From Nitrospirota bacterium (GTDB lineage Bacteria; Nitrospirota; Thermodesulfovibrionia; Thermodesulfovibrionales; UBA6898): 40,334 bases of DNA. Position 1 is the stretch's first letter, and every line of letters begins with the position of its first letter. A program made the position numbers and the translations under genes. This document shows positions 4,008-40,334 of the stretch, piece after piece. The stretch lies in assembly GCA_024275975.1 (NCBI GenBank), contig JAJRYC010000057.1, positions 1 through 40,334 of the forward strand. The letters run 5' to 3'. The notes under the pieces were generated by a model. It was not told the DNA's origin and searched no databases. It saw only the letters and a program-made list of their open reading frames with translations.

Positions 4008-5315
4008 TTTTTCCTCTCTGGAACACCCTTCTTTCGCTGAACAGCAGTTCAGCGATAATAACACTCAGATAGAAAACACAAATCCAGGTCAGACTACTCC
4101 GGCTTGTTTGCCAGAGATATACAATCAACACCACCCAGGAAGCCGTGGTTAATGCAAGCCCTGTCAAAGGCATCGTTGTTCCGATATTGATTTTCTTCTG
4201 AGCCTGAATGCGGAAAGGTTGATTGACGCAAAGATCAACAGAAAAGTGGAGCTGGCAAAGGCCGATATAATGGTCAAATCGCTGGTATTCACGAAAAAAA
4301 TGGTAACGGCAGTAATGAATACCAGACTCACCCACGGAATATTCCTGAGGCGTTCTTTATGCGCAAAAACCCGTGGAAGGTCTTTGTCTTTGGCCATCAC
4401 CATGGCGAGACGCGCAGTACCGAATAACGTAGCGTTGATGGCTGAGGCAGTAGACAGAAGGGCGGCCAGTCCGATCAGCATAAACCCAGCCCGGCCCAGA
4501 AAGGGTTTGGCCGCTACAGCCAGGGCATATTCCTTATAACGGGCTATATCGGATGGAGAAAGATTGCCGACGGCCACCGTGGCGACGAGGATATAAATAA
4601 CTGTTGTAATGAGAATCGAAATCAAGATGGCCCTTGGCAGGTCCCTGTCCGGATTTTTCATTTCCTTGACGGCGTTTGGTATAAGTTCAAACCCCTCATA
4701 GGCGACAAAGATGAGCGCTGACCCCATCAAAACTCCCGTCAATCCCTGGTTAAAGACCGGAAAGAGATAGTCTGTTTTGATATACAGAAAGCCGATGACG
4801 GCAAAGAGCGAGAGGATCAGCACTTTGACCATAACGATAACATCCTCGCTCTTTCCCGCGGCTTTCACTCCATACAGGTTGATTCCAAGGAAGACGAGCA
4901 GAATCATAGACTGGAGAAAATGATGCATGGCGATACCATGCGCGTTTCCACCAAACATCGCCGTCCCATAAACACCGAATGTATACGAATATAGCGCCAT
5001 TGTTCCGATATATCCCGCAACAAGCAGCCAGCCGCCGATTCCCGCTATATTCCGGTGTCTGAACGCATGCTCGAGATACGTAAAGCTCCCGCCGTCGGAC
5101 TGGAACCGAAGACCGAGTCTGGCATAGGAAAAGCCGGTCAGCAGAGCGATTACCCCTCCCAGGATAAAAGCGACTGGTGCCGCATGTCCCGCCACACCAA
5201 CGGCTAGACCGAGCACGGAGAAGATACCTCCCCCCACCATCCCACCGACACCCATCGCAACGAGCTCCTTAAGTCCGAGTTTTTCATCCATTCCGGTTTC
5301 AACCATCTTCCTCAT
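4003..5315 (-). pseudogene. APC-superfamily amino acid permease, single frameshift
   Basis: Predicted inner-membrane amino acid/polyamine transporter. The first part (to about residue 375) starts with the typical APC opening LKELVAMGVGGMVGGGIFSVLGLAVG and carries about ten hydrophobic segments, including VAYEGFELIPNAVKEMKNPDRDLPRAI. At 4191-4194 the run of four A (minus strand) appears to lack one A: restoring it joins NLSAFRLRRK to INIGTTMPLTGLALTTASWVV and yields an uninterrupted protein of about 437 residues with two more membrane helices, the usual family length. The restored length is a multiple of three. Candidate starts are ATGs at 5315, 5306 and 5291; MDEKLGLKE at 5291 resembles many relatives. 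A 44-codon ORF ends 18 bases upstream, suggesting an operon. Sequencing error versus true frameshift cannot be decided here. Confidence 0.82.
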
Positions 5316-15226: not shown

Positions 15227-16929
15227 ATGCCCTTATCTTTTTTACGCTTCAGGAGGACATACAGAAATGTAAACAGACTGAGACAGATCATAAATGTCTT
15301 CCTCAAGTACGGATTCGGCAAAGTAATTGACCAGATACATTTAAGCAGGTTCATCCCCTTCAGGAAGAGGATCAAAACCTTCGGACAATGGCCCCAGCTG
15401 AAAAGTCCGACAACTCCCGAAAGACTGCGGATGGCGTTTGCCGAACTCGGCCCCAGCTTTATAAAGCTTGCCCAGCTCCTCTCCACAAGACCCGACCTCA
15501 TCACCAAAGAGTTCGCCAATGAATTCAAAAAACTTCAGGACAGGGTCCCACCCTTCCCTACCGAAGAGGCTGTAAAGCTGATCGAAGAGGAGAATCTGCT
15601 CTCCATAAAGCAGATTTTCTCGCAGCTCGATGAAAAACCGGTGGCCGCCGCTTCCATAGCACAGGTTTACCACGCAAGACTTCTGGACGGCAGCGAGGTG
15701 ATAGTAAAAGTACAGCGGCCTCATATAGGGGAACAGATTGAGAGCGACATAAACATCCTGAGCACAACGGCGCGCCTAATGGAAAAGTATATACCTGAAA
15801 GCGTCTTTTTTAACCCTACGGGCATAGTAGAAGAATTCACCAAAACAGTAAAAAAAGAACTGGACTTCATAGAAGAAGCGAAAAATTGCTGCCGTTTCAG
15901 GAAAAATTTCGAGAACGACCTCAATGTCTACATCCCGAAAATCTTTGCCGAATTCACAACAAACAAGGTGATTGTGATGGAAAAGATCGACGGGGTGAGA
16001 ATCGATGATATAGAAGGGATAGCCAGGATGGGCCTCGACCGCCGGAAACTCGCTCAAATCGGGGTTAATTCTTATTTCAAGCAGGTACTTGAAGACGGTT
16101 TTTTCACGCTGACCCTCACGCCGGAAATATCTTCGCGATGCCAAGCGGAATGATAGGATTCATGGACTTCGGCATCGTCGGCAGGGTCTCGAATGACCTC
16201 AGAGAGACGATGGCCAATACGTTTCTCGCGCTTATTCACAAGGATTTCGACAGGCTCATTGACCAGTACGTCGAACTCGGCCTCGTACCCGAACATCTGG
16301 ACATCGACATCTTCAGGAAAGAGTTCAAGTCGGACCTTTCTGATTTCCTTGAACCACTTTACGGACTGACGCTGAAAGATATAAACTTCGCGGATTACCT
16401 GGAAACCCTTACCCGTCTTGCGATCAAACACAGGATACAGATCCCCCCCGACCTCCTGCTTGTCAACAAATCAATGCTTATTCTTGAAAACATCGGAAGC
16501 GAATTAGACCCTGGGTTTGATTTTATCGCAGCGGCGGAACCTTACGCCACAAAGCTTATAAAAGAGAGAGTTAAACCGGCGAAGCTTTACGAAAAAGCCA
16601 TGAAAAATGTTATGGAAATAAGCGATATATTCATGCTTTTCCCGAAACAGTTCAGGCAGCTCATGCGGAAGTTACTTAGAGACGATATAAACATTAAAAT
16701 AACCCCTATCGGCATTGACAAGTTTATCAGGGACATGGACCGATCCAGCAACAGGATATCCTTCAGCCTGATTATCAGCTCCATTCTCCTGAGTTCCGCC
16801 ATACTGCATGCGACGGGAGTAGGACCCAAGGTCTACGGCATGTCTCTCTTGGGTCTCACGGCCTTTGGATTCGCTTTTATGCTCGGCATCTGGCTTATCA
16901 TTTCGATAATCCGGTCAGGAAGATTATAG
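15227..16929 (+). pseudogene. ubiB: UbiB/AarF (ABC1/ADCK) atypical kinase-like protein, single frameshift
   Basis: Membrane-anchored ATPase/kinase-like protein that supports quinone biosynthesis. The first frame contains GPSFIKLAQLLSTRPDL (the KxGQ motif reads KLAQ, residues 80-83), the A-rich loop AAASIAQVYHA and the lysine motif VIVKVQRP. At the T run 16099-16104 one T appears to be missing: seven T would give GFFHADPHAGNIFAMPSG, the catalytic loop, directly joined to MIGFMDFGIVGR with the DFG metal-binding motif. The corrected gene encodes 567 residues, a normal length, with two C-terminal membrane helices (last 60 residues). As read, the protein stops near residue 308 before the DFG. A homopolymer sequencing error is likely. 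Confidence 0.88.
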
Positions 16930-17069
16930 CTCCAGTCGCTCTTCACTCAGTCCACCTACGGAAAAAAGTCTTCAGGAATGGCATAAGCAAGGTTCCTCCC
17001 TGCCGGGCCAAACCGGGTTTCAGCATTATGACTATAGGACTGCCCTTTATGTCAAAACTCTCTCTATGC

Positions 17070-17099
17070 TTGACAATGCCATGCCTTTTTAAGTACATT
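17070..17099 (+). promoter_or_regulatory. Sigma70-type promoter of tpiA
   Basis: TTGACA (17070-17075), an 18-base spacer, and TACATT (17094-17099). The -10 box ends nine bases before the tpiA ATG and no Shine-Dalgarno sequence is seen, so the transcript would be nearly leaderless. Confidence 0.6.
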
Positions 17100-17108
17100 A
17101 AGTAGCTT

Positions 17109-17854
17109 ATGAAATACTTTATTGCGGCCAACTGGAAGATGAACAAGACTATAACGGAAACCAGAGAGTTTCTGCGGATTTTCATGCCCGCTGTAAGAAA
17201 AGTCAAGGATGTTGACATTGTCATCGCACCGCCTTTTACTTCCCTTTCGGCTGCTTATGAAAAAATCAAGGGCAGCAACATAGTTTTATCCGCCCAGAAC
17301 ATCTTCTGGGAAGAAAAGGCGCCTACACAGGTGAAATTTCCTCCACAATGCTGGCTGACGCTGGATGTCGATATGTTATAATAGGCCACTCAGAGAGAAG
17401 ACAGTATTTCCATGAAACCAACGAAACCGTTAATAAAAAAATAACATCGGCACAGAAAGATGGTCTCCATGTCATTTTCTGTGTCGGGGAATCCCTGAAA
17501 GAAAGAGAAGCCGGCAAGACTTTTGATGTAATAAAAAAAGAGATCAGGGAAGGACTCAAAGGGGTGAATGCCGGTAATTTTGTAGTCGCGTACGAGCCGA
17601 TATGGGCCATAGGGACCGGCAAGACGGCAACTACCGGCCAGGCGCAGGAGATGCATGAATTTATAAGAAAAATCCTCGGGGAATTATACGGGGACAAGGC
17701 TGACGAAATTCGTATATTGTATGGCGGAAGTGTCACTCCTGAAAATGTCGACGACCTTATGGCGTGTAAGGATGTAAACGGCGCGCTCGTTGGCGGCGCG
17801 GGACTCAAACCCGAGAGTTTTTCCAGGATTGTTTGTTTTAAGAAGGAGATTTAA
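17109..17854 (+). pseudogene. tpiA: Triosephosphate isomerase, single frameshift
   Basis: Interconverts dihydroxyacetone phosphate and glyceraldehyde-3-phosphate in glycolysis/gluconeogenesis. Frame one begins KYFIAANWKMNKT (catalytic Asn and Lys) and runs to SAQNIFWEEK. At 17318-17319 GG should be GGG: one added G gives KGAYTGEISPTMLADAGCRYV, then VIIGHSERRQYF (catalytic His), and the second frame supplies VAYEPIWAIGTGKTA (catalytic Glu), RILYGGSV and GALVGGAGLKPESF. The corrected length is 248 residues, standard for the enzyme. No ribosome site precedes the ATG. The stop overlaps the secG start (TAATG). Real inactivation of tpiA would be costly, so a consensus error is favoured. Confidence 0.92.
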
Positions 17855-32758: not shown

Positions 32759-33305
32759 TTATGCCCTAATTACATCAAAGATGAACTCTCCGGTGTCTGT
32801 GCCTGCATCCAACATGCACACTGCCGCCTGTCCCATTGGGTGTACCTATTGTATCGCCCAATTCGTTGGCAAGAGTATTAACATCAAGACCTAATGGGCT
32901 CTGCCCGACGTTATTCAGCACATCAAAATAGATTATCAACACATGGAGGTCACGGCTTGGTCCAGTGCCGGTTATGTCAAACCCGTTCACTGTAATTGTG
33001 CCGTTTGTATTATCCAGATTAACAGCCGCTATAAACCCATCTATTCCTGCCTCTACCCCATTTGTGCCTTTTGTGGTGTCCACATTAATTAGAGCAGGGT
33101 CAAAAGTTGTGGTAAATTGATATGCTCCGAGTTTGTCGAAACCAGTGTCAGCATGCACCTCAAGTATAAACGAATTATTCACATTTACTGAAATGGATGA
33201 CGGTTGTATCCACACATCTCCAGCAGCCGCATAAACATTTAAAGGAGACATAAGAATTAAAACTCCAACTATAAATGTTAAGTTTTTACCCCACTTGCAG
33301 ACCAT
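32759..33305 (-). CDS. Secreted cohesin-domain protein
   Basis: A small exported protein (about 181 residues if corrected). Signal peptide MVCKWGKNLTFIVGVLILM...VYA, then one cohesin domain: GDVWIQPSSISVNVNNSF, YQFTTTFDPALINVDT, TVNGFDITGTG and VLIIYFDVLNNVG, the jelly-roll pattern of type I-like cohesins that bind dockerins. As read, the frame ends at 32775 with the unlikely tail VGCRHRHRRVHL; skipping one G at about 32809-32816 instead gives VDAGTDTGEFIFDVIRA and a stop at 32759. GAAGGGGG precedes the ATG. It lies 76 bases after the dockerin gene, so cohesin and dockerin are likely co-expressed. There is no cell-wall anchor or second cohesin visible, so it cannot act as a multi-site scaffold. 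Confidence 0.82.
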
Positions 33306-33381
33306 TTTATTGCCCCCTTCTTATAATTCGTCACTGACCACAGTAGGATAGCCCATTCTGTGGCTAAACAGTTATTATCTT

Positions 33382-33595
33382 CTATCTCCCACACCAGGTA
33401 TCCACTGTAAACCCTGCAGAGTACCTTGCTATTAAAAGGGCATCTACTATGTCAATAATGTCATCGCAATTTACATCCGCTACCTCTGGAATGAAATTAT
33501 CTTCCGACAGCCCCGCCGCATACCTCGCCACAAGCAGGGCATCAACTATGTGTATATCTCCATTGCCATCCACATCACCAATTACATATTCAACT
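33382..33595 (-). other. Dockerin type I domain
   Basis: Two duplicated calcium-binding segments with the same core IVDALL[VI]ARY[AS]AG: first loop DVDGNGDIHIVD and second loop DVNCDDIIDIVD. Residues at loop positions 10-11, which set cohesin specificity in cellulosomal dockerins, are Ile-Val in both halves, so the module is symmetric. Confidence 0.85.
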
Positions 33596-35775
33596 GTTAC
33601 TGCCACATTGTCAAAATCAGAGTCCTGCCCATCGGTTACCATAAGCTCTAATACATATGTCCCTATTACATCAGGGATAAAGGACGGAGACACAGTAACA
33701 CCGCCAGAAAGGTCGCCGTTTGTAATGCTGCTTTCAGTAGGCACTGTCACAAAACTCCACAAATAAGATAATGGCTGAGGTCCGTTATCAGGATCATTGC
33801 TTATAGATCCATCAAGCACAGCAGTCACACCGAAAGAAATAGTAATATCGTCTCCTGCATTGGCATTAGGCGGTACATTCTCTGTAATAGCCATAATTTG
33901 CATTGTATCCTCGGACGTAAGCTCTCCATCACTTACTACTACTCTGACTACATATGTACCATCCACCTCGGGAGTGAAGCCCGCATTTACCTGCTCCTTA
34001 TTAGTAATATCGTTGTCAGTTAACCCGCTTGCTTGAGGAAGCTCATCAAAACTCCACAAAAAAGATAATGGCTGAGGTCCATTATCAGTATCATTGCTTG
34101 CAGAGCCATCAAGAGATACCAAACTTCCGGTTAATACATTCTGGTCAGGTCCCGCATCAGCATTTGGCGCTACATTAGCTGTAGTGGCAAAGATAGAAAC
34201 AGTATCTGAATCCTGCAATTCTCCATCACTCACCGTTAGCTCAAGCACATACGTGCCATCAACATCTGGAGTAAATATTGGCTTGGCGCCTGTGACATCA
34301 GAGAGGGATGCGTCGGTAATACTACTTCCAGGAGGAATACCTATAACCGTCCATAGGAATGTGATAGTTTCTCCTTCTGGGTCATAGCTCCCGCTTCCAT
34401 CAAGAGTTACAATCTCTCCAGTAAAAACATTTTGATCAGGGCCTGCATTGGCAACTGGTGGTTCATTTACTCTGATATAGTTCTCTTTTGTCAGTGTATC
34501 AGAACTACCATCCACATCTGTCACTGTCAGGCTCACAGTGTAAGTGCCTGCTGTGTCATATATGTATGTCGGATTCTGAACCGTCGAATCAATCACTCCA
34601 TCATCATCAAAATCCCACCCATAGCTTAAAGGTTGATCATACACTGTAGAGCTGTCAGTGAAAGTGACGGTAAGCGGTGCTGCGCCACTCGTTGGACTAC
34701 CGGTGAACCCAGCCGTCGGTGAGCTGTCACTCGCCACTATCACTGTTGATGCCGTATCTGTAGAACCATCACTGTCGGTCACTGTAAGTGCAACTGTATA
34801 GCTTCCATCCTGACTGAATGTATGGGATACTGTTACACCTGAGTCTGTATTGCTATCTCCAAAATCCCATGCATAGCTTAATGGCACATCATAACCACTT
34901 GACCCAGAGGCATCAAAGTTTACGGTCAGAGGCTCTACACCCGATAATGGATCAGTAGTAAAGGAGGCTACAGGTGAGATGTCAGAAATGGTGGCTGTTG
35001 TGGTTGCCTCATCTGTTGCACTGAGATTGTCTGTAACCCTAAGCTTTATGGTGTATGTGCCCTGTTGGGCATAAGTATGGCTATGGGTTGGTAATGGAGA
35101 ACTATAATCATATGTCCCATCATTATCTATATCCCATTCATAAAGCTCTATACTTCCATCTTAATCGTTTGAGCCTGAACCGTCAAGGGTTACTACCTGC
35201 CCTTCAATGCCTGTATATGGGCCGTTGGGGTCGGAGGTAGGCAGGTTGTTCGTCCCTGTCCCACTTAACGGTACATTTAATGTCAAAGTATCAGGGTCAT
35301 TGGATGGCATACTCAGATTGGCACTCTTAAACCCACCTGACATGGGTGAGAAGACCACATCCACAGTGCAGTCTCCTGATGATGGGGCTATCGTTTGCCC
35401 TGAGCAACTGTCATTCTCCATTACAAACTCAGACACATCTGGGCCTGTTATAGAAACTGCCCCTATCACAAGGTCTGCATTGCCATCATTTGAAACCGTG
35501 AATGTCTGTATACCAGATGTGCTTCCCACATTTACACCGCCAAAGTCATATGATACGGGTAATACAGAAATGTCAGGAGGAGATAGTGTCAGTGAAATCC
35601 TATTGCCAGCTGCATCATAAGTATATTTCTCGGTATTCCCATTTCCATAATCTACGTTCGTAATGCGGTTAAGAGAGTCGTAAGTGTAGGTCACTGTGGC
35701 GGCATAAGATTGTCCCGATATGACCGCAGTCAGAAGAAAAATAATTGAAATAATCAAGATATTTTTATATTTCAT
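33382..35775 (-). pseudogene. Secreted YD/ASH/PKD multidomain protein with C-terminal dockerin, in-frame TAA
   Basis: About 797 codons when read through one stop. The start ATG 35775 follows AAAGG and gives a signal peptide (about 1-25). Then: two YD repeats (27-62); a choice-of-anchor-D/ASH-like beta domain (about 68-175); three PKD domains, including LSYAWDFGDSN and LSYGWDFDDDG; three PKD/REJ-like domains each starting PxANAGPDQNV or similar; and a type I dockerin (last ~68 residues) with Ca loops DVDGNGDIHIVD and DVNCDDIIDIVD. Codon 205 is TAA (35161-35163), inside PKD1 between GSGSND and DGSIELYEWD; both sides are one frame with no length change. A single substitution explains it. As read, a product of 204 residues would lack the dockerin. 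It lies between the RHS and cohesin genes on the same strand. Confidence 0.85.
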
Positions 35776-35828
35776 AACAGGCCTTTTCCCCTCGCAACCT
35801 ACAACCTGAAAAAATTGCCTTAAAGTCT

Positions 35829-35960
35829 TTAGCGATAGTAACAATCCAAATCATAATTACATTTCCTAAGTTTAAAGGTACTTCCTCCAAAAGTTTGAGG
35901 CTCTTCACCTTTCTTTATATTTCTTATATCTTCTGCTATCGGCAGCCAATTTTCTGTTAT
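35829..35960 (-). other. Open frame directly after the RHS stop codon (possible RHS C-terminal tail)
   Basis: Immediately after the RHS TAG (35961-35963) the same frame stays open for 43 codons, to a TAA at 35829-35831. It encodes ITENWLPIAEDIRNIKKG followed by EEPQTFGGSTFKLRKCNYDL and DCYYR. It has no start codon of its own. Balanced composition suggests that it was coding, which would make the TAG a nonsense change or misread base. Chance is possible over so short a stretch. Confidence 0.35.
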
Positions 35961-38900
35961 CTAAACAGTAGCTTTCGATGTTCCATAAGGACTCCATGGT
36001 AAAAACAAATCAAAGAAAGAACCAATCTTGTCAACAATTTTTTTAATTAATGAAGTTTTTTCTGCTTTAGCAACAATTATTATAGATGTAATTTCTCCAC
36101 CCTCAAGCAAAGGATTATTACGCAAATCTGAAGAACTCGACAAATTCTGAACAGTGCTCCCCTCCAGCGCACTAAATCCAGATATATCAATCAAAATCAC
36201 AGGATTATTCAATGCATATACATACCTATTCAGACTCTGACTATCCCCATCCTTCCCTGTCACAGTGTCTTTGGTGATAAATCTACCAATTTCAGGTGCA
36301 TAGTATCTTGCCCTGATGTAATTAAGTCCGTTTCCTTCCTCAATCACTCCGTATCTACCGACATACTTGAATGGATTCTCTGTTGTACCCTGACTGTTAA
36401 CAATATTACCAAATGTGCCATAGGCGTATTTATCAGTTAAATTTTCTGAAGAATCACTCAAGGCAACAGTGCTTCCTCTGGAATCGTAGTGGTAGTAATA
36501 ATCTGTGCCGTCAGGCAAGACATTTGAAATAAGTCCGAGCCCATACACATAATAAGATGTTATTGTTCCGACATTGTCTGTCTCAGCAAGAACATCAGAG
36601 AGGCTTCCATTTATATCAAGAACATATTTTGTAGTCGTGCTGCCTTCTGTTTTTGAAAGCCTGTTCCCGAATCCATCATAGTCATACTGTGTAGTTACAC
36701 CGCCAATACTACTTTCTATGAGCCCGTCCTCGTCATCGTATACAAAAGCATCACTCCCCTTTGATGTAAGATTGCCATTGGGATCATAGATATATGTTGT
36801 GCCGCCAGCATTTGTAAGTCTGTTTTCAGCATCATAGGTATAAGTATTATGCTGGCTTGTAAGCATCGGGGGTAGCGGTTCATCCTTCACCACACTGGAA
36901 TGATTCCCGATTTCATCGAGCGTGAATTTATAGCTTGATATGACCGTAGAATCTGACTTTTTATTAGATAACCCTGTTAATCGCCCTGCATCATCGTAAG
37001 TGTAAGTTGTAGCTGTATTATTTGGGTTTAATGTGCCTACAAGATTACCTGCGGCATCATACGCATATGCAGTTGTATTTGTAAACCAGTCTGATACAGA
37101 TGTTAGCCTGTTAAGTTCATCATAAACATAATTTACGACCTTGCTGTCAGGATAAGTCAATGATATCCTGTTACTGTTGGCGTCATATCCATAGCCGATT
37201 GTCTTTCCAAACGGGTCAATATGTGAAACCATCCTGTTTAATGCATCATATGTGTATGTTGAGATTCCGAGACTGTCAACCATCTGTATTCTGTTTCCAT
37301 TGGCGTCATAGGAGAATGTAACTGTTGAGGCATCAGAGTATGTGATTGCTATGAATCTGTCATTGGCATCATAGGTGTAGCTTATTGTATTGCCATTTGC
37401 ATCTGTCAGGCTTATCCTGTTGCCAACTGCATCATAGACATATTGGCAAGTGTTTCCAAGAGGTTCGACTTTCTGAACAAGCCTGTTTAAGGCATCATAG
37501 GTATATGAGGTTGTATTTCCATTCGGTTCTGTCATTGTAATACGATTGCCGTTTTCATCATATGTATAAGTGACTATGCCTCTATCAGCGTCTGTGACCT
37601 GTATGAGTCTGCCCAAAACATCATAGTCGAAATCTGTGGTCTGTCCTTTGGCATCGGTCGTAGATGTGATTTTACCGATAGCATCATAGGCGTTTGTTGT
37701 TATATTGCCAAGAGGATCAGATATCGAGATAAGCCTGTTTAAGGAATCGTATGTATACGTCGTGGTCTGCCCCAAAGGATTTGTCCCTGTGAGTTTATTG
37801 CCATTTACATCATAGGTATAGGTTGTTACATTGCCCAAAGCATCGGTTGTGGAAACAATGTTTCCAGCCCAATCATAGCTATAGTTTGTTATATTGCCGT
37901 TTTTGTCCGTTGTGGATATTCGTCTGTCTAACCCGTCATAGGAATAGCTGACAATGCCGCCAAGAGTGTCTGTAACGGTTGTCAGCAGGTCTTTTACATC
38001 ATAGGAAAAATTCGCTGTATTCCCCAGAGGATCGGTGATTGAAAGTTTGTTATTGTTGGCATCGTATGTATATGATCTTACATTCCCTAATGGGTCTGTT
38101 ACTGAGAGAAGATTGTCATTATCGTCATAATTATAGGTTGTTGTCCTTCCGAGGGCATCTGTGACTGTAAGCCTTCTTCCGGCACCATCGTATGTATAGG
38201 CAGTTGTATTTCCAAGGACATCTGTCACCGATAGTAGATTACCCTCTGAATCGAATGTGTTTGTTGTAACTCCACTCCTGGCATCCGTTATTGTAAGGGG
38301 CCGTCCATTCGGATCATAAGTAATCGTTGTAAAATATCCTAATGGAACAGTCGTTTTTGTAAGATTGCCATTTGCATCATACCCAAATGTCGTGATATTC
38401 CCGAGTGCATCGGTTCTTGTAAGAGGATTATTGTTTGAATCATAGGTGATGGTGGTGACATTACTGAGAGCATCGGTCTTAGTCAGAACATTTCCACTTG
38501 AATCATAGGTGTAATTTGTCTCATTACCATTTTTATCTGTTACCTTAATCCTGTTTCCCGCGGAATCATATTCGTAATATGCAGAGTTGCCTGAATCATC
38601 CGTTTCCTGAATAAGCCTTAACAATTCATCATGATAATGAATAGTCGTATATCCAAGCTGATCAACCAGGGTTGTCTTTTTGTTCACCTCGTCATATGTA
38701 TAGGTAGTCACTCCTCCTTTGGCATCGCTCTGGGAGGTTACAACTCTCTTTAGCGCATCATAGACATTGGTGACGACTGTGTTTCCCCTCGGATCAACCA
38801 CAGTCAAAAGCTGGTGATTGATGTCATATGTGTAGGCAGTGGTGTTTCCATTCATATCTATAGCGGCAACAAGATCTCCATTTGTATCGTAGCTGAACTG

Positions 38901-40334
38901 GAGAGTCCTTCCTATGGGGTCTGTAATGAGGGTTATCCTGTTGTCTGCATCATATGTAAAGTCAATGTTCCTGTCCACCGTATCTGTAATTTGTGTAAGA
39001 TTACTGCCTGTATAGGTAAGACTTATTGTATTGCCGTTTTTGTCAACAATACTTGAAAGAATCCCTGATGTATCAAAGTTGTATTCTGTTAGATCCTTTT
39101 TCCTGAGTGTATATGTCCCGTCACCATTGGATATCAGGGTGTCAAACACTCCATATTGAGGTGAAAATCCACCTAAACCGTCAGGGGTCCATGTTTCTGT
39201 CTTCCCATCACCCCATCGGATGGTAACGGTAGAATCAACAGTTACTGTCAATGTAATGTTATAACTATATGTCCATCCAAAACCCAGAGGACCATCTGTT
39301 TCATCTTGAGAATTGTAATTCCTTTCAAAAACAAATGGCTGACCCCTACCGGGTATTTCTAAATCCTTCTTCTGATAGATATAATTTCCTGTAGCTGTAT
39401 TAACAGGGTCTGGTCCGTAACCTGAATTGGTATCACCACCATAAACAGTCTCTGGTTTTGTAAGGGAAATGTCCCATGTAGTATCTCCACAGATACTAAC
39501 ACCCTGATAGTATGGAAAGTAGCTGACGGTAGAAACGCTGATTGTATATGAGCCGGTAGTAATAATAGGAAAGGCATAATAGCCTGAGGCATCTGTTACA
39601 GCGGTTAAACCATTGCTTAAGTACACTGTTACACTTTGCAACTCGCTATTTGTTAAGGTATCCCGGACATATCCTGATAAAATACCATCAGTACATGTGT
39701 CGGATTTGGGCGTCAGATAAATATCACGAGTTTTCGAAACTGTAAGGTCGATATTGGTTGTATAATCAAAATAATCTGTCTTAGATGCAACTATTGTATA
39801 AATACCACCCGCAATCTTTTTAATAATATAGTGGCCATTGCTATCTGTAGTGGATGAGTAAGGGGCAAGATCGACAGATGCACCGGAAATGGGAGAATTG
39901 GTATTTGCTTCATATACATTGCCGGATAGTTCATTATTCGGATCATAGCCAAGCCATGGTTCATAATCAACATAATCGCTGACCCTATCACCTGTCCCGT
40001 TCGGGTTATACCAGCCTCCTGTAGCTCTATCATCTGATGGGTCATATGGACCACTGGAAGCACCCCAGTAATTATTTTCAGCAGTAACTATTACTGAAAC
40101 ATCTCCATTATAAAGCCCATAATTGCCGTTGCCACTAAACATATTCCCTGTTATTATCGGATTTGATCCGTTTGTACACTTAATACCATCCACCGTATTA
40201 CCCTGAATTATACTGTCTCTGATCTCCGGACTCCCATTGCTTACATATATCCCTTGTCCAGTATTGTTCAGTATGTTGCTTGCCACTATCTGCGGTGATG
40301 CTCCATTTACATATATCCCCAGCTGGTTCTCTGA
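35961..40334 (-). CDS. RHS/YD-repeat giant secreted protein, 5' end beyond window
   Basis: At least 1457 residues visible; the N-terminus is cut by the right edge. Order from the edge: parallel beta-helix repeats (IYVSNGSPEIRDSIIQGN and similar), two carboxypeptidase-regulatory-like domains (SGNVYEANTNSPISGASVDL; SGYVRDTLTNSELQSVTVYL), a DUF6531-type opening (DPVNTATGNYIYQKKDLEIPG), about 37 YD repeats with a roughly 21-residue period, then the RHS core (YYYHYDSRGSTVALSD, RYYAPEIGRFITKD, NRYVYALNNPVILIDISG). A 71-residue variable tip follows, with a hydrophobic/amphipathic region SIIIVAKAEKTSLIKKIVDK. RHS shells usually encapsulate a toxic or effector tip; no nuclease motif is recognised here. 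Codons are more AT-rich than in the housekeeping half. The next gene downstream is the dockerin gene and there is no obvious immunity gene. Confidence 0.9.
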   Translation of the reverse strand, partial: SENQLGIYVNGASPQIVASNILNNTGQGIYVSNGSPEIRDSIIQGNTVDGIKCTNGSNPIITGNMFSGNGNYGLYNGDVSVIVTAENNYWGASSGPYDPSDDRATGGWYNPNGTGDRVSDYVDYEPWLGYDPNNELSGNVYEANTNSPISGASVDLAPYSSTTDSNGHYIIKKIAGGIYTIVASKTDYFDYTTNIDLTVSKTRDIYLTPKSDTCTDGILSGYVRDTLTNSELQSVTVYLSNGLTAVTDASGYYAFPIITTGSYTISVSTVSYFPYYQGVSICGDTTWDISLTKPETVYGGDTNSGYGPDPVNTATGNYIYQKKDLEIPGRGQPFVFERNYNSQDETDGPLGFGWTYSYNITLTVTVDSTVTIRWGDGKTETWTPDGLGGFSPQYGVFDTLISNGDGTYTLRKKDLTEYNFDTSGILSSIVDKNGNTISLTYTGSNLTQITDTVDRNIDFTYDADNRITLITDPIGRTLQFSYDTNGDLVAAIDMNGNTTAYTYDINHQLLTVVDPRGNTVVTNVYDALKRVVTSQSDAKGGVTTYTYDEVNKKTTLVDQLGYTTIHYHDELLRLIQETDDSGNSAYYEYDSAGNRIKVTDKNGNETNYTYDSSGNVLTKTDALSNVTTITYDSNNNPLTRTDALGNITTFGYDANGNLTKTTVPLGYFTTITYDPNGRPLTITDARSGVTTNTFDSEGNLLSVTDVLGNTTAYTYDGAGRRLTVTDALGRTTTYNYDDNDNLLSVTDPLGNVRSYTYDANNNKLSITDPLGNTANFSYDVKDLLTTVTDTLGGIVSYSYDGLDRRISTTDKNGNITNYSYDWAGNIVSTTDALGNVTTYTYDVNGNKLTGTNPLGQTTTYTYDSLNRLISISDPLGNITTNAYDAIGKITSTTDAKGQTTDFDYDVLGRLIQVTDADRGIVTYTYDENGNRITMTEPNGNTTSYTYDALNRLVQKVEPLGNTCQYVYDAVGNRISLTDANGNTISYTYDANDRFIAITYSDASTVTFSYDANGNRIQMVDSLGISTYTYDALNRMVSHIDPFGKTIGYGYDANSNRISLTYPDSKVVNYVYDELNRLTSVSDWFTNTTAYAYDAAGNLVGTLNPNNTATTYTYDDAGRLTGLSNKKSDSTVISSYKFTLDEIGNHSSVVKDEPLPPMLTSQHNTYTYDAENRLTNAGGTTYIYDPNGNLTSKGSDAFVYDDEDGLIESSIGGVTTQYDYDGFGNRLSKTEGSTTTKYVLDINGSLSDVLAETDNVGTITSYYVYGLGLISNVLPDGTDYYYHYDSRGSTVALSDSSENLTDKYAYGTFGNIVNSQGTTENPFKYVGRYGVIEEGNGLNYIRARYYAPEIGRFITKDTVTGKDGDSQSLNRYVYALNNPVILIDISGFSALEGSTVQNLSSSSDLRNNPLLEGGEITSIIIVAKAEKTSLIKKIVDKIGSFFDLFLPWSPYGTSKATV
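36660..38965 (-). repeat. YD-repeat array within the RHS gene
   Basis: About 37 copies by eye of a 21-residue (63-base) unit around [YF]xYDxxGNxxxxxDxxGN. Copies are diverged at the DNA level, so it is an old protein-level repeat rather than a recent tandem expansion. The repeats wrap into the RHS beta-cage. Confidence 0.85.

Follow-up and report, generated by a model that had tools for sequence, protein, structure and literature searches.

Noncellulosomal cohesin and dockerin modules, including a pair from Archaeoglobus fulgidus, were reportedly described by Peer et al. in 2009. A further case is the cohesin of Clostridium perfringens NagJ with its secreted partner dockerins (PDB entries 2OZN and 2JH2). 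Cohesins and dockerins are known to occur outside cellulosomes, where published work describes their role as unclear (PMC9012536, PMC5244752). Organisms that are not thought to degrade cellulose have single modules of this kind on proteins other than cellulases, and the archaeal versions show specific binding (PMC9012536). Cohesin, dockerin and Rhs modules are combined on one chain in ScaO1, ScaO2 and ScaP2 of the cellulosome-making Clostridium alkalicellulosi, whose ScaO/ScaP scaffoldins are similar to those of Acetivibrio cellulolyticus (PMC6780208). The claim in the preliminary description of the present locus that no described system combines these three modules was hence too strong.

The locus studied here occupies the end of contig C25 and is encoded on the minus strand. 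This contig, 40,334 bases long, makes up the whole stretch of DNA that was analysed (the window). The genome comprises 2.51 Mb in 111 contigs. Judged from sequence comparisons, we consider it fairly probable that the locus encodes a non-cellulosomal cohesin-dockerin tether beside an RHS gene, with binding between the two modules as a prediction.

Three genes at the end of the contig

In the downstream direction, an RHS/YD ORF is followed by a gene for a YD-ASH-PKD-dockerin protein and by a small cohesin gene (Table 1). ORFs and domain matches thereby confirm the three consecutive same-strand genes of the preliminary description. That description had also suggested looking for further cohesins and dockerins; genome-wide profile searches yielded one cohesin, one dockerin and one full RHS gene in total, all inside these 7.6 kb, which is therefore not chance crowding. 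Its view of the locus as non-cellulosomal held, as no second cohesin, scaffoldin or other dockerin was found in the genome. RHS-repeat matches in the genome are those of the full RHS gene, of the YD repeat in the dockerin gene and of a single-repeat gene on contig C82. The PADLOC defence models gave no match to the locus.

Table 1 Features of the locus and frame-disrupted genes elsewhere in the window
Feature	Position	Strand	Details
RHS/YD protein, 1457 aa	35961-40334	-	RHS_repeat, DUF6531 and RHS core matches; N-terminus cut by contig end
Dockerin gene, 5' piece	35161-35844	-	Signal peptide, single YD repeat, ASH / choice-of-anchor-D domain, start of first PKD
In-frame TAA	35161-35163	-	Breaks otherwise open frame 35844 to 33382
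Dockerin gene, 3' part	33382-35160	-	PKD domains, C-terminal dockerin
Type I dockerin	33421-33579	-	Two F-hand loops (DVDGNGDIHIVD, DVNCDDIIDIVD); PF00404 and PDB dockerin matches
Single-cohesin protein, 176 aa	32775-33305	-	Signal peptide (by eye); cohesin domain 32808-33221
tpiA	16900-17851	+	Split by frameshift
ABC1/UbiB kinase gene	15227-16929	+	Split by frameshift
Amino-acid permease gene (named by eye)	4164-5315	-	Split by frameshift

The first protein belongs to the RHS family, with 473.6 bits to PF05593 in 23 stretches, a DUF6531 match and 62.8 bits to TIGR03696. It is composed of the end of a right-handed beta-helix, two carboxypeptidase-regulatory-like domains, DUF6531, RHS repeats, an RHS core and a tip of ~75 residues. 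The ORF is open at the contig end, so that any signal peptide would lie outside the sequence. Of the giant secreted RHS/YD protein proposed earlier, the RHS/YD identity therefore stands, whereas the N-terminus needed to judge secretion runs off the contig. Past the TAG stop codon of the gene, the frame stays open for another ~45 codons (about 35830-35960, minus strand), possibly a remnant of a longer tip.

The RHS core with its short, variable tip would fit a polymorphic-toxin style RHS protein, as would the tip-like orphan ORFs that are present at a second locus (L068, see below). Taken alone, the RHS gene could be an ordinary representative of this style beside unrelated surface-protein genes, an explanation that is compatible with the tether. 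Profile searches with the tip matched no known domain and no toxin domain, and the ORF list of the window contains no ORF of at least 100 aa, and none of immunity-gene size, in the interval that separates the RHS gene from its downstream neighbour. The features by which an RHS polymorphic toxin is recognised, a toxin tip and an adjacent immunity gene, were thus not observed. As the linkage of RHS genes with a certain class of secreted proteins is also non-random, we regard this explanation as possible, though doubtful.

The likely ATG start codon of the dockerin gene is at 35775, and its mini-YD module spans 35584-35775. The dockerin reaches 29.5-33.9 bits against PF00404, above the cut-off of 22.9, and is thus a member of the type I dockerins. 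It resembles solved PDB dockerins by sequence, and the calcium positions of the two loops are mostly occupied by Asp/Asn, as judged by eye. The domains expected for a secreted YD/ASH/PKD-dockerin protein were all found; the single open frame from signal peptide to dockerin was not. As sequenced, the TAA leaves no open frame that links the two, so that the dockerin does not form part of a secreted product. The ORF list gives the 3' part as 33382-34887; its start codon, a GTG at 34887, falls within a PKD domain, and it lacks a signal peptide. Unless the TAA is a sequence error, this genome may not encode a functional dockerin protein. Readthrough, recoding or a changed code at this position is not favoured, with TAA, TAG and TGA all terminating genes in the window.

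At least three genes on the contig besides the dockerin gene are broken by frameshifts (Table 1). For tpiA, a consensus error is more likely than a biological cause, and the frameshifts in the three genes suggest consensus errors in the assembly. The TAA in the dockerin gene may therefore be a sequence error as well.

The cohesin gene starts 80 bp after the dockerin ORF. Alone, the protein scored 18-18.9 bits against the Pfam family Cohesin (PF00963), below the cut-off of 24.1, and a six-frame search with this family missed it. Single-protein queries gave few relatives, and relatives were collected with alignments. All 14 members of one of these (A2) match PF00963 with E values of 0.05 or better. 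The A2 profile matches solved PDB cohesins (scaffoldin cohesins) at up to 1e-18 and also the PDB chains 2OZN and 2JH2. By these profile comparisons, assignment to the cohesin family is secure, and the secreted single-cohesin protein of the preliminary description is retained, with the signal peptide recognised by eye. Inspection of the C-terminus and Pfam revealed neither an anchor nor a PEP-CTERM sorting signal. The C-terminal residues, GSVHVG followed by CRHRHRRVHL, look unnatural. A single-sequence AlphaFold model of the cohesin was of no use (pLDDT 30.6).

The in-frame TAA and the odd cohesin C-terminus could mean that the locus has decayed. A true nonsense mutation would then truncate the dockerin protein, the cohesin tail would be lost and nothing would be assembled here now, while relatives keep working pairs. 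In line with this, the searched close relatives are without a copy, and an in-frame stop is also present in the genome's one further mini-YD gene. However, apart from the TAA, the frame of the dockerin gene is open for ~590 codons with its domains intact, and the frame disruptions in tpiA and the other contig genes make consensus errors an equally good explanation. Decay thus appears unlikely to us. The second mini-YD gene, which also encodes a signal peptide and a single YD repeat (L153, contig C82), contains one TAG at 1228 (minus strand) in an otherwise open frame.

Two modular associations in the phylum

Among 396 genomes of the phylum, cohesins are present in 23 and dockerins in 36, with both in 8 genomes compared to ~2 expected. 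The dockerins occupy about 45 places in these genomes, and chance adjacency with cohesins is therefore negligible. When the flanks of cohesin loci were scanned with profiles built in this analysis, a dockerin gene was found within 1.6 kb of 16 of the 28 non-secretin cohesin genes, on the same strand every time (the 28 leave out five secretin-type cohesins and the three dockerin-found loci L112, L118 and L124). The 12 cohesin genes without a dockerin neighbour include four that are located on short contigs or where a contig ends (L077, L167, L168, L169) and three whose upstream gene has a dockerin-like tail, as judged by eye (L078, L086, L087). For the other five, flanking sequence is available and no dockerin neighbour was found in it (L072, L074, L082, L093, L166).

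A dockerin neighbour was found for none of the five secretin-type cohesins. These are located at the C-terminus of secretin-like proteins of ~800 aa (L083, L089, L090, L091, L092), the genes of which mostly lie within type II secretion / type IV pilus clusters.

Adjacent pairs occur in at least 12 families. According to Pfam, the cargo encoded near partner cohesins ranges over multicopper oxidase, GDSL lipase, sortilin/BNR with metallopeptidase, lactonase propeller, laminin-G and RHS. PEP-CTERM signals score above threshold in the partner cohesins of L066, L067 and L079, just below it in L070 and weakly in L118, and PEP-CTERM-like tails are visible in the cohesins of L069, L164 and L165. Several partner dockerins fall below the Pfam cut-off (L068, 21.0 bits; L070, 18.5; L118, 17.3; L124, 16.5), and two were not recovered by Pfam (L067:8748-10910 and L079). 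The recurrence of adjacent same-strand genes across families of the phylum supports the earlier prediction that the cohesin would pair with the neighbouring dockerin.

A second type of conserved pair was also observed, in which a protein of ~320 aa with a C-terminal dockerin is encoded directly upstream of a large cohesin protein (L080, L084, L085, L086, L088, L170; degenerate in L078 and L087).

A module consisting of a signal peptide and a single YD repeat heads many secreted proteins of the class, as seen in a module search. An RHS gene lies within 6 kb of 16 of the 42 genes with this mini-YD module and of none of the 40 control windows. The corresponding Fisher p value of about 5e-6 is only indicative because dockerin-only and secretin-type loci served as controls, the mini-YD loci were found via a YD query and the genomes are phylogenetically non-independent. 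The RHS neighbours are on the same strand in 17 of 17 cases, and RHS is upstream in 14 of 16. The linkage between RHS and mini-YD genes is thus non-random.

Secreted single-YD proteins with a same-strand full RHS gene as neighbour are encoded at L205, L207, L211, L214, L216, L225, L228, L229, L231, L232, L234, L235 and L239. In the whole set, a recurrent 'GGYDC...LKG...FILKK' domain or 'PVSV' repeats are frequently located at the C-terminus of the mini-YD proteins.

Among the searched relatives from the same family and order, only isolated members have the cohesin-dockerin pair. Conserved co-occurrence of all three genes, as envisaged in the preliminary description, was absent from the searched close relatives, but was found once elsewhere. 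In genome G291 (L068, L171), an RHS gene is followed by a gene for a protein with signal peptide, YD repeat and dockerin and then by a cohesin gene, which is the same order as in the window. In G291, the RHS and dockerin genes are separated by small ORFs. Downstream of its RHS gene (L068, 10850-13367), small ORFs repeat the C-terminal RHS core in the manner of orphan tip cassettes. In G286 (L069), dockerin and RHS repeats are on one chain, encoded beside a PEP-CTERM-like cohesin. In G233 (L074), an SpvB/TcdB-type RHS protein is encoded near a cohesin gene, with no dockerin gene beside the latter.

These three genomes, together with the YD repeat at the start of the dockerin protein itself, would be consistent with a single dedicated machine, with the PKD fibre attached to the RHS shell, or to what surrounds it, by the cohesin-dockerin bond. 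However, an RHS neighbour is present in a minority of pairs (the window, L068 and L069), most cohesin-dockerin pairs being without a nearby RHS gene, and most RHS / mini-YD loci contain neither dockerin nor cohesin. A dedicated machine is thus improbable. That the three genes form one fixed system, as initially envisaged, is not supported, RHS having its own link to leading-YD proteins. Instead, the window is the overlap of two modular associations, one of RHS with a leading-YD secreted protein and one of dockerin with cohesin.

Predicted tether

For the tether, we propose that the unbroken dockerin protein would be exported and show one YD hairpin, an ASH domain and a PKD stalk, with a calcium-type dockerin at its end. 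The cohesin from the next gene, exported as well, would capture this dockerin 1:1 and hold the cargo outside the cell. Since a PEP-CTERM-type sorting signal is common in the partner cohesins of relatives, the socket on the envelope side is probably the cohesin, with the dockerin as the plug that the cargo carries. The RHS gene would be present at this locus since leading-YD proteins are habitually encoded beside RHS genes.

The adjacency could also be real without the two modules binding each other, with the dockerin as a calcium-stabilised C-terminal cap and the cohesin binding another partner or being merely adhesive, as cohesin-like domains without dockerins in the secretin-type proteins and the many dockerins of the phylum without a cohesin gene nearby might suggest, but pairs in at least 12 families with unrelated cargo are hard to explain without interaction, which renders this improbable.

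A contact between the YD repeat and the RHS shell is speculation. In the tether as extended in this way, the single N-terminal YD repeat would dock on the neighbouring RHS shell and the dockerin would plug into the cohesin socket, so that RHS shells would be tethered to the envelope. The dockerin-cohesin half would have been transferred to many other cargoes in the phylum. We give this extension little credence.

Comparison with known systems

Like the noncellulosomal modules known so far, the single cohesin and the dockerin of the window sit on proteins that are not cellulases. The differences are repeated adjacent same-strand gene pairs across a bacterial phylum, diverse cargo, PEP-CTERM cohesins and, at this locus, an RHS neighbour. 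As with C. perfringens NagJ, non-cellulosomal proteins would be joined here by a cohesin-dockerin contact, both of them secreted if the dockerin gene is unbroken. The modules of NagJ are on large secreted glycosidases, whereas here a dedicated small cohesin protein is encoded beside the dockerin gene. The ScaO/ScaP scaffoldins likewise combine cohesin, dockerin and Rhs modules, but do so on one chain in full cellulosome systems with many cohesins, in contrast to the separate genes and single pair of the window.

DUF6531, RHS repeats and an RHS core near the C-terminus are shared with RHS / YD-shell proteins; here, however, neither toxin tip nor immunity gene was recognised, and the next gene encodes a secreted protein starting with a single YD repeat. 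The PEP-CTERM motifs at the end of partner cohesins in relatives correspond to PEP-CTERM/exosortase surface sorting (PMC1569441), whereas the window's own cohesin is without the motif.

A literature search found no paper treating dockerin, cohesin and PEP-CTERM together, and none on dockerin with a YD repeat. Within the searchable literature, the phylum-wide series of single neighbouring pairs, with its diverse cargo and its PEP-CTERM sockets, and the linkage of RHS with single-YD proteins appear to be new. Taken together, the results suggest that cohesin and dockerin are used as a general coupling for surface attachment. Adjacent gene pairs with one plug and one socket constitute ready candidate cognate pairs for the question of non-cellulosomal cohesin-dockerin function, and the RHS / single-YD linkage provides a testable lead on the partners of secreted RHS proteins.
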